Source: an uncultured Alcanivorax sp. (lineage in GTDB: Bacteria; Pseudomonadota; Gammaproteobacteria; Pseudomonadales; Alcanivoracaceae). Taken from it: a DNA stretch of 42,209 nt. Of the stretch, positions 1-42,209 are shown in pieces. The notes under the pieces are model-generated. The model was not told the origin of the DNA, did no database searches, and worked only from the letters and a program-made list of their open reading frames with translations. Within the stretch, counting starts at the first letter, position 1. Each line of letters begins with the position of its first letter. The position numbers were made by a program, and so were the translations under genes. Location of the stretch: the NCBI GenBank assembly GCA_913055795.1, contig CAJXLA010000009.1, forward strand, positions 1 through 42,209, given 5' to 3'.

Positions 1-77
1 GCGCGAGGCGCGAGGCGCGAGGCGCGAGGCGCGAGGCGCGAGGCGCGAGGCGCGAGGCGCGAGGCGCGAGGCGCGAG
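1..77. repeat. Heptanucleotide tandem array, 11 copies of GCGCGAG
   Basis: Eleven uninterrupted perfect copies of the 7-base unit GCGCGAG (CTCGCGC on the other strand) run from the first base to position 77, so the array may continue outside the window. The unit belongs to the same CTCGNNC family as the shorter degenerate arrays at 191-211, 334-368, 10049-10083 and 18727-18800. No open frame or terminator is associated with it here. Confidence 0.95.
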
Positions 78-333: not shown

Positions 334-368
334 CTCGCTCCTCGGCCCTCGCACCTCGCTCCTTTTCG
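334..368. repeat. CTCGNNC heptamer array beside the DUF2452 stop codon
   Basis: Four in-phase heptamers (ctcgctc, ctcggcc, ctcgcac, ctcgctc) end in cttttcg. They lie two bases from the stop codon of the minus-strand gene that ends at 370. Positions 1-5 (CTCG and the final C position) are conserved while the two inner bases vary. Confidence 0.85.
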
Positions 369-369
369 C

Positions 370-966
370 TTATCCTGCCTCCTCCCCGGAACGAGCCTCT
401 CCTGACGATTGATCGGGCAGTACGCCCTGCGCCTGCTCGTACGTCATCTGCTTGATGCCCGATTTCTCCATGGACACGCCCAGTGAATGCGCCAGCGCGA
501 AGGCGTAGGCGCGGCGATAGAAGCCGAAATCCTTGCGGTGGCCGGGCAGGATATCCTCGACCGCTTCGGCCTCTTCCAGCTGCTGTTCAAAGGCGTTTTT
601 CTTGTCCTGGAGGTATTGAATCAGTTCCTCGTCCTCGGAGGCCTCCTCGGACAATTCCAGGGTCCAGGTGATGTCCTCGTGCAGCATGCACTCGCCGATA
701 AACTGGCCATATTGTTCCGGACCCCACTCATGGGGGCCAATGGGCGAGAGCCAGAAGCGCTCGTTCTTGCGGTAGAGCCAGTAGGAGCGTCCGGCCACCG
801 CCTTGAACTTGAACTCGCTTTCCAGCACGAACAGAGAGGTGAACAGCTCGTTGGAGATCTGTTCGATGTGCTTGGCCGGTACATGCTGCGCCGCCGCGCG
901 TACGCTCGACAGCTGCGCGAGTACCGGGACGAGGCCCTTGCCCTGTGGATTGGGATTTTCCGGCAT
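370..966 (-). CDS. DUF2452 family protein
   Basis: This 198-residue soluble protein has no signal peptide or membrane segment. The N-terminus (MPENPNPQGKGLVP...) and overall length resemble the DUF2452 family of proteobacterial proteins, whose function is unknown; I assign this from memory of the family. The middle is aromatic-rich (SYWLYRK, RFWLSPIGPHEWG), followed by an acidic, helix-forming section (residues about 105-140) and a short charged tail. The start codon is ATG at 966. A candidate -10 (TACAAT on the minus strand, 1016-1011) lies about 45 bases upstream, in the space shared with the divergent adenylate cyclase gene. The stop at 370 abuts a heptamer array. No biochemical role can be given. 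Confidence 0.7.
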   Translation of the reverse strand: MPENPNPQGKGLVPVLAQLSSVRAAAQHVPAKHIEQISNELFTSLFVLESEFKFKAVAGRSYWLYRKNERFWLSPIGPHEWGPEQYGQFIGECMLHEDITWTLELSEEASEDEELIQYLQDKKNAFEQQLEEAEAVEDILPGHRKDFGFYRRAYAFALAHSLGVSMEKSGIKQMTYEQAQGVLPDQSSGEARSGEEAG

Positions 967-8459: not shown

Positions 8460-8481
8460 TCCGGAGACTTTTGATTCGGGT

Positions 8482-8533
8482 TAGCAGACTGTTGAAAAAA
8501 TCTTGCGCGCTCAGGCTTTCCAACAGCCTGCTA
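8482..8533. repeat. Palindromic repeat with GACTGTTGAAAAA core (copy 1)
   Basis: Outer arms TAGCAGACTGTTG (8482-8494) and its near complement (8521-8533) flank a 26-base centre. The segment 8491-8520 is nearly identical to 41996-42026 near the other end of the window. It lies 22 bases after comF and directly abuts the MITE-like element at 8531-8640. Confidence 0.8.
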
Positions 8534-8640
8534 GTCTCCCGTCCGGGCAATTCGTTAAATTTCTGAGCTCCCGAGCGCGTTGAGAGCAAGGCGCGCAGAT
8601 TCACGCCGACATTTAACGAATTCCCCGGACGGGACACTAG
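8531..8640. mobile_element. MITE-like element with 30-bp terminal inverted repeats
   Basis: Positions 8531-8560 and 8611-8640 are inverted complements at 28 of 30 positions, enclosing a 50-base centre. Both ends are CTAG, which may be a 4-base target duplication as made by IS5-group transposases; in that case the inverted repeats are 26 bases. No coding capacity is present. Origin from a non-autonomous transposon is inferred; a large attenuator-like hairpin is the alternative. Confidence 0.75.
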
Positions 8641-8700
8641 ATACAATCACCCGGCTGGTCTGCATAATACGCGTGATAACAATAGACCCCGGGGGACCCC

Positions 8701-9252
8701 ATGAAAAAGATCCTGCTGATGCTGGGCCTGGCCATGGCCCAGGCCGCTTTCGGCCAAGCGCCGCAATACAGCGAAAAGTCCAGCCCGTATGAGGGCATCA
8801 AGGTGCAGCGTGGATTCGTGTTTTCGGGCTATCGTGTGGACCCGTCCGCGAATGTGGATACGGGCTTTGGCTGGGATATCAACTACTCCAGTGTGGCGCT
8901 GAACGGCGGCGTGGCCACCAAGAAATTCGGTGAGTCGGCATTGCGCCCGAGCAGTCGGGACAATCCGAACCCGATCGTGGACGAAGAACGGGTCAATAAT
9001 GTCTATTTCGGCACCGGCTTCAGCCGCATCATTCAGTTTCAATACGGTTATGGTAACCACGGGGATGTGCTGCGCCTGCGCTCGGACTTCAATTTCCGGG
9101 CCATTGCCGACTTCTTCCAGGATAAACACACGCCCAAGCGTCAGCTGACGCTGGCCGACCGGCTGACGTTCACCTACTCCCTGGAGGAATACCTGGATGA
9201 CGACGAAGAAGCTTTCGACAACTTCACCTGGGGGATCGGTCTGCTGTTTTGA
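8701..9252 (+). CDS. Secreted, probable outer-membrane beta-barrel protein of unknown function
   Basis: The 183-residue protein starts with a clear signal peptide (MKKILLMLGLAMAQAAFG, cleavage likely before QAPQ). The mature part has alternating hydrophobic/polar stretches with many Gly and aromatics (FVFSGYRV, GFGWDINYSSVALNG, VYFGTGFSRIIQFQYGYG, FNFRAIADFF) and ends in WGIGLLF. A C-terminal Phe with alternating hydrophobics is the usual signature of a Bam-assembled barrel; about eight strands would fit. I do not recognise the family. Its stop codon overlaps the start of comB by four bases, so the two are translationally coupled. GGGGGA precedes the ATG. Confidence 0.75.
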   Translation: MKKILLMLGLAMAQAAFGQAPQYSEKSSPYEGIKVQRGFVFSGYRVDPSANVDTGFGWDINYSSVALNGGVATKKFGESALRPSSRDNPNPIVDEERVNNVYFGTGFSRIIQFQYGYGNHGDVLRLRSDFNFRAIADFFQDKHTPKRQLTLADRLTFTYSLEEYLDDDEEAFDNFTWGIGLLF

Positions 9253-9956
9253 TCATTGAAATCACCCAGGGCCGCGAACCCCCGAACAACCCGGACGGCA
9301 TTACCGTGGTCATCGATGTCATCCGGGCCTTCACCACGGCCTGGTATGCCTTTTGCGGCGGCGTGCAACGCATTCACCTGGTGGGTTCGGCCGAGGAGGG
9401 CTTTGCCCTGGAAAAGCGCATGCCGGGCGTCCCCCTGGTGGGCGAGGTCGACGCTCTGCCCATTCCAGGCTTCGACTACGGGAACTCACCCTGGGAGATC
9501 AGCCGGGCACGTCTGCCGCAAGAGCTGATCATGCTTACCACCAATGGTGTACGTGCCACCCTGAATGCCCGGGACAGCCGCCGCGTGCTGGTCACGGGGC
9601 TGGTCAACGCCGACGCCACGGTGGCGGCGATCCGTGGACTCAGCACGGGCGAAGACGAGCGGGTCGTGCTGGTTGCCTCCCACCCCACCGGCGACGAAGA
9701 CCTGGCCTGCGCCGAATACATGGTGGAGCAGCTGGGCGGGCCCGGCATCGAACTGGAAGAGGCCGAGGAACGGGTGCGCCGCTGTGAGGCGGCCCAGAAG
9801 TTCCTCCAGCGCCTGCATCCCCGGCTGCACCCGGCGGATGTCCACATGGCGGCCGAAAGCCGGGGCGCGGAAGGCTTTGCCGTTCAGGCACACTATACGC
9901 CCGAGCCGGTCATTCAGCGGCTGGACTGGCCGTTCGACGACGTCGAAAGGTGCTAG
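9249..9956 (+). CDS. comB: 2-phosphosulfolactate phosphatase family protein (ComB-like)
   Basis: The 235-residue protein matches the ComB family: VVIDVIRAFTTA (20-31), GEVDALPIPGFDYGNSP (about 64-80), LTTNGVRA (about 97-104), and the Cys/Glu-containing DLACAEYM near residue 154. ComB hydrolyses 2-phosphosulfolactate to sulfolactate in coenzyme M synthesis; many bacteria without coenzyme M have homologues whose substrate is unknown. The start is TTG at 9249 overlapping the upstream gene's TGA (TTGA), which fits coupling; no ATG is available near the conserved N-terminus. The stop codon lies inside an AGGTGCT repeat array, so array length changes could in principle alter the C-terminus. Confidence 0.85.
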   Translation: MIIEITQGREPPNNPDGITVVIDVIRAFTTAWYAFCGGVQRIHLVGSAEEGFALEKRMPGVPLVGEVDALPIPGFDYGNSPWEISRARLPQELIMLTTNGVRATLNARDSRRVLVTGLVNADATVAAIRGLSTGEDERVVLVASHPTGDEDLACAEYMVEQLGGPGIELEEAEERVRRCEAAQKFLQRLHPRLHPADVHMAAESRGAEGFAVQAHYTPEPVIQRLDWPFDDVERC

Positions 9957-10003
9957 GTGCTAGGTGCTAGGTGCTAGGTGCTAGGTGCTAGGTGCTAGGT
10001 GCT
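9948..10003. repeat. AGGTGCT heptamer array, 8 perfect copies
   Basis: Eight perfect tandem copies of AGGTGCT run without interruption. The first copy encodes the last residues of the ComB-like protein and the TAG stop lies across the first two copies. Confidence 0.95.
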
Positions 10004-10048
10004 TCAAGATCCGCAACCGCGCAAATCCCTGTCAAGCCTCTTGTTTTT

Positions 10049-10083
10049 CTCGCCCCTCGGCCCTCGAGCCTCGCTCCTTGTCA
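10049..10083. repeat. CTCGNNC heptamer array
   Basis: Four in-phase heptamers (ctcgccc, ctcggcc, ctcgagc, ctcgctc) end in cttgtca. The layout is the same as at 334-368, but no gene ends here on the minus strand. It is 45 bases from the AGGTGCT array, so one 240-base spacer holds two unrelated heptamer families. Confidence 0.85.
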
Positions 10084-10108
10084 TTATCCGAGCAATTCAG
10101 TCAGTGAC

Positions 10109-10137
10109 TTGCCGGTCGCGATCTGGGAAACTGTGAT
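10109..10137 (+). promoter_or_regulatory. Predicted promoter of the acyl-CoA dehydrogenase gene
   Basis: TTGCCG (10109-10114) and TGTGAT (10132-10137) are separated by 17 bases, 61 bases before the ATG. The -10 touches the palindrome at 10136-10155. Confidence 0.45.
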
Positions 10138-10155
10138 TCAAACGATTGTTTGATT
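10136..10155 (+). promoter_or_regulatory. PsrA/TetR-type operator candidate
   Basis: The sequence TCAAAC-GATT-GTTTGA is a perfect palindrome (10138-10153) and fits the PsrA recognition pattern (C/G)AAAC-N2-4-GTTT(G/C). PsrA-type TetR regulators repress fatty-acid beta-oxidation genes and are released by long-chain acyl-CoA. The site lies at the expected transcription start of an acyl-CoA dehydrogenase gene, where binding would block initiation. The regulator itself is not in the window. Confidence 0.6.
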
Positions 10156-10198
10156 CCGCCCGTGCGCGGAGTGCCCACCCTCAAACCCCGGAGCCGCC

Positions 10199-11446
10199 AT
10201 GATTGATTGGACCGAACAGCAGCAGATGATCCAGAAAATGGTACGTGATTTCGTGGAAAAGGAAGTCGTACCCAATCTGGACGATATCGAATACAACGGC
10301 GTACCGCCCTACGCCATCCTGCGCAAGATGGTACAGACGTTCGGGCTGGACGTGATGGCGAAGCAGAATTTCGACAAGCAGATCGCGAAGGAAAAGGCGA
10401 AGGCCGCGGGCGAAGCCCCGGACGAGTCGGCAGACAAGGAGGACGACAGCGCCAGTGGCTCGGCGGGCGAGCAGGCGGCCATGCAGATGATCCCCATCAT
10501 TGAGCTGTGCCGGCATGCCCAGGGACTGGTCACCGCCATGGGCGTGTCCATGGGCCTGACCGGCGGCGCCATCATGGGCAAGGGGACCACCGAGCAGAAG
10601 GAACGCTGGGCGCTGCCGCTGCTTACGCTGGAAAAAGTGGGCGCCTGGGCCATTTCCGAGCCCAATGCCGGCTCGGATGCCTTCGGCCAGATGAAGACCC
10701 TGGCCAAACGCGACGGTGACGACTATGTCATCAATGGCTCCAAGACCTGGATCACCAACGGCCCCTACGCGGACACTATTGTGCTGATCTGCAAGCTGGA
10801 CGAGGACGGTGTGGCTCCAGAGGATCGCAAGATTCTGGCCTTCATTCTGGATGCCGGCATGGAGGGACTGGAGCAGTCCGCGCCCTTCAAGAAAATGGGG
10901 ATCGGTTCCTCGCCCACAGGCGAGCTTTTCCTGAATGACGTCCGGGTGGGCAGGGACCGTTTAATGGGCGGCTCCGAGGATGGCTATGGCCGCTCCGGCG
11001 CCAAGGGCGCCTTCATGCAGGAGCGCGCCGGCGTGGCCGCCATGGCCTGGGGCATTGTCGATCGGGCTCTGGAGCTGAGCGTGACCTACGCCAACGAGCG
11101 TCAGCAGTTCGGCCGGACCATCGGCGAGAACCAGCTCATTCAGCTCAAGCTGGCGAAGATGGAAGTCGCCCGCATGAACCTGCAAAACATGGTCTTGCGC
11201 TATATCGAGATGGTGAGCGAGGGCCGGGAGATGACCATGGCCGAAGCTTCGGCCATGAAACTCTACGCCGCCCAGACCGCCATGGAGGTGTCCACCGAGG
11301 CGGTCCAGGTCTTCGGCGGCTTCGGCTATATGCGCGAATCGCGTGTGGAGCAGCTCATGCGCGACGCCAAGATCCTGCAGATCTATGCCGGTACGGACGA
11401 AATGCAGGTTACCGCCATTGCCCGGGATCTGCTCGCCCGCGCCTGA
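10199..11446 (+). CDS. Acyl-CoA dehydrogenase
   Basis: This FAD flavoenzyme oxidises an acyl-CoA to the 2-enoyl-CoA. The 415-residue protein has the signature AISEPNAGSDA (151-161), the substrate/FAD segment WITNG, and the C-terminal signature with QVFGGFGYM. Two features are unusual. At the canonical base position (MCAD Glu376, in YEGT) it has Ala397 (IYAGTDEMQ), while Glu275 in FMQERAG aligns with the alternative base used by isovaleryl-CoA and long-chain enzymes. Residues about 58-95 are an acidic, low-complexity insertion within the N-terminal helical domain. ATG at 10199 has CGGAG six bases upstream. The promoter carries a PsrA-type site. The exact chain specificity cannot be read. Confidence 0.92.
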   Translation: MIDWTEQQQMIQKMVRDFVEKEVVPNLDDIEYNGVPPYAILRKMVQTFGLDVMAKQNFDKQIAKEKAKAAGEAPDESADKEDDSASGSAGEQAAMQMIPIIELCRHAQGLVTAMGVSMGLTGGAIMGKGTTEQKERWALPLLTLEKVGAWAISEPNAGSDAFGQMKTLAKRDGDDYVINGSKTWITNGPYADTIVLICKLDEDGVAPEDRKILAFILDAGMEGLEQSAPFKKMGIGSSPTGELFLNDVRVGRDRLMGGSEDGYGRSGAKGAFMQERAGVAAMAWGIVDRALELSVTYANERQQFGRTIGENQLIQLKLAKMEVARMNLQNMVLRYIEMVSEGREMTMAEASAMKLYAAQTAMEVSTEAVQVFGGFGYMRESRVEQLMRDAKILQIYAGTDEMQVTAIARDLLARA

Positions 11447-17654: not shown

Positions 17655-18707
17655 TTAATCACCACCGCGGCAGACCTCGTCCACAAAGACGGCAACGCTG
17701 TCCGGATCCACTTCCGGGGTCACGCCATGGCCCAGATTGAACACATGACCGGGATGGTCGCCGTAATCGCGGCGAATGCGTTGCACCTCCGCGCGGATCA
17801 CCTCGGCCGGGGCATGGAGCACGGCCGGGTCCATGTTGCCCTGCAGCGCCACGCGCCCGCCCACCTGCCGGCGCCCTTCGCCCATATTCATGGTCCAGTC
17901 CAGACCCACGGCGTCACAACCGCTGGCGGCGATATCGTTCAACCATAACCCGCCGTTCTTGGTGAACAGGATCACCGGCACGTGCCGGCCTTCATGCTCG
18001 CGGATCAATCCGGCGACGATGCGTTCCAAGTAGCGCAGGGAAAATTCGCGGTAGGCGGCATCGGACAGAGCACCGCCCCAGGTATCGAAGATCTGCACCA
18101 CCTGGGCGCCCGCGCGGATCTGGGCATTGAGATAATCCGTGACCGCGCGCGCGAGCTTGTCCAGCAGTTCGTGCGCGCGTTCCGGCGTGGCGTAGATCAT
18201 GGTCTTCAACTGCCGGAAATCGCGGGAACTGCCGCCCTCAACCATATAGGTGGCCAGCGTCCAGGGGCTACCGGCAAAACCGATCAGCGGCACCCGTCCA
18301 CCGAGAGCGCTGCGGATGGTGCTGACGGCGTTCACGACATAGTCGAGGTCCGTGTCCGCATCGGGCACGGGCAGATCACGCACATCCGCTTCGGTGCGCA
18401 CGGTCTTTTGGAACTTCGGCCCCTCGCCCGGCTCGAAATAGAGTCCCAGGTCCATGGCCTCGGGGATGGTAAGAATGTCGGAAAACAGAATGGCCGCATC
18501 CAGCGGGAAGCGCTCCAGCGGTTGCAGCGTGACTTCACAGGCCATGTCCGCGTTGCGGCACAGATTCATGAAGGACCCGGCCTGCTCACGAACGCGCCGG
18601 TATTCGGGCAAATAACGCCCGGCCTGACGCATCAGCCAGACCGGTGCGCGATCTACGGGTTCGCGCGCCAGCGCGCGCAACAAACGATCATTCTGGAGGT
18701 CGGTCAT
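17655..18707 (-). CDS. hemE: Uroporphyrinogen decarboxylase HemE
   Basis: HemE decarboxylates the four acetate side chains of uroporphyrinogen III to give coproporphyrinogen III in haem synthesis. The 350-residue protein has the family signatures [16 protein letters not shown] (22-37), the catalytic Asp in [28 protein letters not shown] and the C-terminal FNLGHGV. Length is normal. ATG at 18707 has AAGGA upstream. It is the last gene of the pil-aro-glt run, separated from gltD by a 90-base spacer holding two inverted heptamer arrays. Confidence 0.97.
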
Positions 18708-18726
18708 AATGATCCTTGGGCAAGGC

Positions 18727-18754
18727 GCGAGCTGCGAGGCTCGAGGTGCGAGGA
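18727..18754. repeat. GCGAGNN heptamer array (inverted partner)
   Basis: Four in-phase units (gcgagct, gcgaggc, tcgaggt, gcgagga) are the complement form of the CTCGNNC family. They face the array at 18767-18794 and could pair with it. Confidence 0.8.
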
Positions 18755-18766
18755 GGCAACAAGGCG

Positions 18767-18797
18767 CTCGCGCCTCGTTCCTCGCGCCTCGGCCCTT

Positions 18798-18800
<3 letters not shown>
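18767..18800. repeat. CTCGNNC heptamer array after gltD
   Basis: Four in-phase units (ctcgcgc, ctcgttc, ctcgcgc, ctcggcc) are followed by cttttaa, whose TTA is the complement of the gltD stop codon. The array thus starts three bases past gltD on its coding strand. Confidence 0.85.
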
Positions 18801-20219
<1,419 letters not shown>

Positions 20220-41968: not shown

Positions 41969-41972
41969 CCCG

Positions 41973-42002
41973 TTTCAACAGCCTGTAAGCAGGCTGTTGA
42001 AA
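41973..42002. terminator. Palindrome after the FtsN-like gene, terminator or repeat
   Basis: Perfect 13-base arms (TTTCAACAGCCTG / CAGGCTGTTGAAA) around a four-base loop begin five bases past the stop. It could serve as a terminator, but the right arm is also the beginning of the repeat shared with 8482-8520, so a repeat-element origin is likely. Confidence 0.6.
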
Positions 42003-42026
42003 AACCCGTTGCGTGCTCAGGCTTTC
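41986..42026. repeat. Palindromic repeat with GGCTGTTGAAAAA core (copy 2)
   Basis: This segment matches 8482-8520 with a few substitutions and a one- or two-base length difference: the AGCAG(A/G)CTGTTGAAAAA part and the GCTCAGGCTTTC part are both shared. Confidence 0.8.
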
Positions 42027-42117
42027 AGGCTGGCTCGCAATCGAGGCGCCCTTTTGAAGGCGGGGCTCGGGTCCCGTCGAAAAAGGGCAACGATGCGTGC
42101 GGGCCAGCCTGAAAGCC
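42020..42117. repeat. Large imperfect hairpin element at the window end
   Basis: Outer arms 42020-42034 and 42103-42117 are perfect 15-base complements (GGCTTTCAGGCTGGC). The inside also pairs in part (GCGCCCTTTT against AAAAGGGC). The remaining 90 bases to 42209 include a weaker ACTGGGT/ACCCAGT inverted pair. No gene is seen after 41968. Confidence 0.65.
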
Positions 42118-42209
42118 CCGCAGGGCGCGGCCTGAAGCGCCCATCTGCTGCACTGGGTCGCTCGGAAAGGGAACCACCCTGTCCGTCGCAACCCAGTACA
42201 CCAGCTGCA

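Follow-up and report, generated by a model that had tools for sequence, protein, structure and literature searches.

What places one seven-base word, repeated in strict phase, in spacer after spacer of a bacterial genome, and why beside stop codons? The question is raised by the window analysed here, a stretch of 42,209 nucleotides at the start of contig 9 of its own genome, G000. This genome is an Alcanivoracaceae-type MAG, a draft assembly of 2.78 Mb that is 86.7% complete, with contigs broken by arrays; its GltD shares 84–85% identity with those of Alcanivorax and Alloalcanivorax. A sequence-only reading of the window had described six CTCGNNC arrays (1–77, 191–211, 334–368, 10049–10083, 18727–18754 and 18767–18800). 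All six are present, three-unit matches occur nowhere else in the window, and Markov-shuffled windows contain zero three-unit runs. A run of AGGTGCT (= GTGCTAG) at 9948–10003, the partner of 10049–10076, had been overlooked, and the 191–211 array is one unit longer than described (CTTGCGC at 184–190). The arrays and their neighbouring genes are as follows:

1–77, minus strand: left arm, array of 11 × GCGCGAG (CTCGCGC when read on the minus strand), truncated at the contig boundary
184–208, plus strand: right arm, CTTGCGC CTCGACC CTCGCCC + CTTT
334–364, plus strand: array CTCGCTC CTCGGCC CTCGCAC CTCGCTC + CTT; the minus-strand DUF2452 gene stops 8 bp away
370–966, minus strand: DUF2452 gene; its stop faces the 334 array
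9249–9956, plus strand: 2-phosphosulpholactate phosphatase-like gene; stop inside the 9948–10003 array (..VERC*)
9948–10003, minus strand: left arm, 8 × AGGTGCT (GTGCTAG units; CTAGCAC on the minus strand); source of the phosphatase ORF's TAG stop
10049–10080, plus strand: right arm, CTCGCCC CTCGGCC CTCGAGC CTCGCTC + CTTG; the array at the coordinates of the original observation
17655–18707, minus strand: hemE (uroporphyrinogen decarboxylase); neighbour downstream of the 18725–18798 pair
18725–18753, minus strand: left arm, GCGCGAG CTGCGAG GCTCGAG GTGCGAG; upstream of hemE
18767–18798, plus strand: right arm, CTCGCGC CTCGTTC CTCGCGC CTCGGCC + CTTT; 3 bp from the gltD stop
18798–20219, minus strand: gltD (glutamate synthase small subunit); neighbour upstream of the 18725–18798 pair

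Position 1 of the window falls inside the 11-unit array, and several further contigs start or finish near arrays, so arrays may really be longer than assembled. Two other repeats share the window: a palindrome at 222–290 (GGTGCGCACAGCGCACCCTAC ... GTAGGGAGCGCTGTGCGCACC), flanked by two heptamer arrays and with scattered copies in other G000 spacers, and a dispersed palindromic element of ~250 bp at 41969–42209 and 8460–8700 (start CAGGCTGTTGAAAAACCC), with many copies in G000 spacers.

Layout and placement of the arrays

G000 holds dozens of (CTCGNNC)n arrays; genome-wide, (CTCGNNC)3 has 94 forward and 92 reverse matches, compared with 16 and 2 for the reversed control. Layout was analysed in 435 kb of G000, made up of stretches that include the window and were picked mostly around arrays, with genes called by a simple codon-usage script. 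In this sample all arrays of at least three units are intergenic and none is coding, and their modal length is four units (15 arrays). The pair layout is (GNNCDAG)n, spacer, (CTHGNNC)n, that is, inward-facing inverted arms: among 15 pairs of adjacent arrays, 14 face inward, one has both arrays in the same direction and none faces outward (P = 4 × 10−8 against equal odds). A layout shared between spacers had been proposed, and it exists as an inverted pair bracketing a spacer rather than as a common CTT(T/G) terminus. That terminus is true of the window, but the part that is constant genome-wide is CT alone (37/37, as opposed to 15/37 for CTT and 10/37 for CTT(T/G)). Some arrays are single, without a partner arm, and within pairs the lengths of the two arms are independent of each other. 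The interiors between G000 arms have nothing in common beyond other repeat families; the intergenic DNA of G000 is crowded with other dispersed palindromes.

The arrays hug gene ends, with a median of 5–6 bp from the gene end to the outer array edge and ~150 bp to the inner edge. In 65% the G-rich word reads on the coding strand and the array begins no more than 20 bp from a stop; the share under random placement inside those spacers is 7.7% (highest of 2000 trials, 22.5%). The association with stop codons, first suggested by two cases in the window, is correct and far stronger genome-wide. The sequence-only reading would have been refuted by the lack of a genome-wide excess or by random placement relative to gene ends, and both checks bear it out. 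By spacer type, arrays are most frequent in convergent spacers (8/38) and least frequent in divergent ones (3/54).

Array edges and unit variation

In 43 of 44 arrays the first unit is preceded by AG, and farther out the agreement at the next fixed positions is ~30%, which is background; the sequence of an array is thus AG(GNNCDAG)n. The edges are unchanged when the unit definition is rotated to other phases, and same-word arrays in unrelated gammaproteobacterial families have the AG start in 13 of 16 cases. A stop that touches an array is usually TAG, its AG forming the first two bases of the array. TAG makes up 15 of the 27 array-side stops versus 83 of 403 stops overall (21%, P = 3 × 10−5), and it remains enriched when the four arrays that contain the stop are left out (P = 0.0017).

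The inner bases of the unit had been read as free. Across 218 units of GNNCDAG, collected by a search that fixed the other positions and barred C at position 5, this is true of position 2; 89% have G at position 3, and at position 5 G is most frequent, followed by T and then A. Neighbouring units are identical in 52% of cases versus 13% after shuffling units among arrays, a signature of slippage.

Heptamer arrays in related genomes

Relatives were sampled at 28–230 kb each. Among the 57 genomes searched, CTCGNNC is widespread in G000 only, with a few matches in each of two relatives. Of the periods from 4 to 12, seven is the sole strongly enriched one in the intergenic DNA of three genera of Alcanivoracaceae (g1, g3 and g8), with G000 additionally enriched for period nine; period seven is near zero in coding DNA. 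The enrichment is absent from the sampled parts of sister genera g2, g4, g5 and g6 and rare across 18 other families of the order. The words themselves differ: CAAGGGN in the congener G001, AAAGTTN and GCAAGCN in G003, and CAAGTTN, AGCTNNG and GACGTCN in G008. Each word is specific to a species or a spacer, yet inward pairs sit in the same spacers across species. That related species have different words in the same places speaks for growth of the repeats where they lie and against a fixed signal. In several relatives, for example, the gltD-hemE spacer contains inward arrays of GACGTCN-type or GCGTGNN-type words flanking an ordinary terminator. The terminators between arms in relatives are local and unlike from spacer to spacer, which is not what a copied cassette would give.

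Orthologous spacers also gain and lose whole pairs. One convergent spacer was compared across 13 g8 genomes: its arms are of CGAGCT type in some and of CAAGCT type in others, or an unrelated TGTAGGAGCGGC palindrome takes their place, and these types do not track the species tree. Another g8 spacer is occupied by CGAGTNN arms, by GCGTGNN arms with a terminator between them, or by other palindromes. Given these alternative occupants, such spacers turn over quickly, and heptamer pairs are one occupant among several. We rejected the idea that the words at L200:3951-4142 changed in concert on a branch: the two word types contradict the species tree, and whole-spacer exchange or loss is equally likely. 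The G001 orthologue of the 9957–10198 spacer has no array, and its gene end is too diverged to locate an insertion point.

Comparison with known heptamer repeats

The arrays had been likened to the short tandem heptamers of cyanobacteria, and the comparison is fair: GGGGA(C/T)T of Nostoc/Anabaena and the cyanobacterial STRR are likewise intergenic tandem heptamers, with another word and in another phylum. The G000 arrays fall outside the STRR, since their word differs and the host's GltD is 85% identical to that of Alloalcanivorax. A closer precedent, and the nearest known kind, is the GGGAATC / GGGANTN heptamers of Xanthomonas, likewise arranged as inverted pairs beside stop codons (Rehm et al. 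2015, PMC4692102). They are intergenic, follow the stop on the coding strand at 0–50 bp, in some cases overlapping it, are most commonly four units long and vary in length between species. Both systems have dispersed seven-base units with free positions, convergent inverted pairs, stop-side placement and a four-unit mode, so the period, the pairs, the placement and the length preference were already known. The Xanthomonas word GGGAATC itself has no match in G000 and occurs in none of the 274 genomes drawn. The word in G000, AGGNGCG, has no regular GGG tracts, and, as a further difference from Xanthomonas, the words of Alcanivoracaceae change between species at the same spacers; an AG phase-lock and TAG enrichment were not found described there (PMC4692102). 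We found no description of the AG edge, the TAG excess or the word change at fixed spacers in the openly searchable literature, against which all three appear to be new. Together, the AG phase-lock and the TAG excess make a concrete rule, open to testing, for the points at which such repeats begin. Since words change between sister species while the spacers stay fixed, the long-standing question of why seven bases are preferred in bacterial repeats can be approached by direct comparison.

Two other systems bear comparison. The TAACTGA direct repeats of Beggiatoaceae are also tandem heptamers at many lineage-specific loci but, unlike the G000 arrays, mostly precede start codons in the forward direction, have an invariant unit and form no inverted pairs (PMC4679880). 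Borg tandem repeats likewise form in place beside seed-like partial repeats, recently and independently, but they belong to archaeal extrachromosomal elements, have other unit lengths and are both genic and intergenic (PMC9879509).

Origin of the arrays

We conjecture, with moderate confidence in the mechanism as a whole, that an AG just past a gene end, often that of a TAG stop, would prime the synthesis of GNNCDAG over and over, every product then having the form AG(GNNCDAG)n. Subsequent slippage would lengthen and homogenise some runs. The orientation of the arms suggests that they grow toward each other from both sides of the spacer, as two 3′ ends would across a gap or break: the new strand would extend from each side into the spacer, leaving inward inverted pairs around unrelated interior DNA. 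Placement would be kept because DNA right after a stop codon tolerates insertions, and host function would be unnecessary. Such growth would account for the edges, the TAG excess, the unshared interiors and the independent arm lengths. Slippage alone does not account for five of seven bases common to dozens of spacers, nor for the free position 2. That seven-base reiteration, primed at AG and proceeding in place at gene ends, produced the arrays in full and serves no host function is a tentative reading, plausible but somewhat short of probable; the gain and loss of whole pairs at orthologous spacers and a g8 palindrome built on CGAGTTN, present in many copies with conserved unit order, count against it. 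The heptamers had previously been ascribed to selection or a copying mechanism. Local copying is favoured by the identity of neighbouring units, the AG-locked edges and the lack of free-site pairing between arms (see below).

The strongest rival takes the arrays for small mobile palindromic elements (REP/MITE-like) that would enter gene ends as a whole, the arms serving as their terminal inverted repeats. Its strength lies in the whole pairs that swap between species and in the g8 CGAGTTN element, which keeps its unit order. That element looks mobile, and REP/REPIN-like copying of a palindrome as a unit, which it resembles, was not seen in G000. Like the G000 arrays, REP and REPIN sequences are short palindromic units near gene 3′ ends and genome-specific, but they lack tandem heptamers. 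The other palindromes dispersed through G000 and the alternative families at one site in g8 would suit mobility; the unshared interiors and independent arm lengths in G000 would not, and no target-site duplications were seen, though with no clean empty site to compare. RAYT (Y1_Tnp), the cognate transposase of REP and REPIN, was rejected as the mover: no RAYT-type Y1 transposase was detected in G000 or G001 (86.7% and 89% complete), and it is present in genera without arrays. We consider the mobile-element explanation unlikely, though it deserves to be taken seriously.

Selected tandem binding sites are a still more doubtful explanation. Here, a putative protein that recognises a specific DNA or RNA sequence would bind overlapping AGGNNCDAG sites at gene ends, for boundary, termination or compaction. 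This would fit the contrast of fixed outer and free inner bases, the edges that coincide sharply with whole sites, the single word throughout G000 and the commonest length of four units. The reading fails on the many words, which differ between related species and even between spacers of one genome; moreover, arrays are wholly missing from sister genera, and wide use of this word is confined to G000 among the 57 genomes.

It is improbable that the two arms form an RNA stem, acting as a terminator or as a stabiliser of the mRNA 3′ end. The arms are inverted and at 3′ ends, and the gltD-hemE pair folds strongly (−51 kcal/mol, z −3.8), but any inverted pair with a common word must fold. Arms from the same spacer pair no better than arms from different spacers (P = 0.63 for duplex energy, 0.69 for free-site match); a common word without free-base complementarity makes a selected stem unlikely. 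Some arrays lack a partner, and in several spacers the arms lie outside or downstream of real terminators. The arrays themselves do not have the GC-rich stem and following T run of an intrinsic terminator, none is predicted at 9900–10220, and the arrays have no match in Rfam.

A long shot is a telomerase-like or template-switching enzyme that would extend AG-ending 3′ ends at intergenic breaks by seven-base units; facing arrays would then flank a healed break, and the word, set by the enzyme or its template, would shift as lineages diverge. G-quadruplex formation, proposed for Xanthomonas and Nostoc (for Xanthomonas tentatively, in a report whose authors examined quadruplex capacity as the hallmark of the repeats; PMC4692102), matches in layout and four-unit mode but can be set aside almost entirely, since AGGNGCG has GG pairs only and forms no regular three-tetrad quadruplex, and relatives' words such as AAAGTTN are incapable of one. 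The recurrence of this layout and four-unit mode with such words leads us to argue that the layout stems from how heptamers are made and that quadruplexes are not its cause.

Further observations

A word shared by both arms of a spacer was not significantly frequent (P = 0.21, permuted within genomes, with an automatic pairing that also joined nested-element arms); individual spacers look clearly word-matched between arms, and we claim no statistic for this. The convergent spacer L200:12377-12471 and its orthologues L241–L252 contain several palindrome families, some nested, in 13 species of one genus; L200:12377-12471 and L197 (g8) carry a CGAGTTNCGAGAAGCGAGTTTCGAAA element with heptamer arms in conserved order and many matches across g8 genomes. 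A second tandem family in G000, of period nine (CACAGAGNN), forms intergenic inverted pairs at L171:80-242, L175:14013-14103, L183:17852-18052 and L187:18167-18231. In a class-wide draw, four-unit CTCGNNC runs occur in 10 of 369 genomes, G000 included, and some form inward pairs; one genome of this draw (G184) matches the reversed control pattern 60 times, which hints that a further heptamer word is abundant there. Finally, a single array in G001 (L208:4442-4519) switches midway from CGAGTNG-type to GGGCTAC-type units while keeping the seven-base phase.
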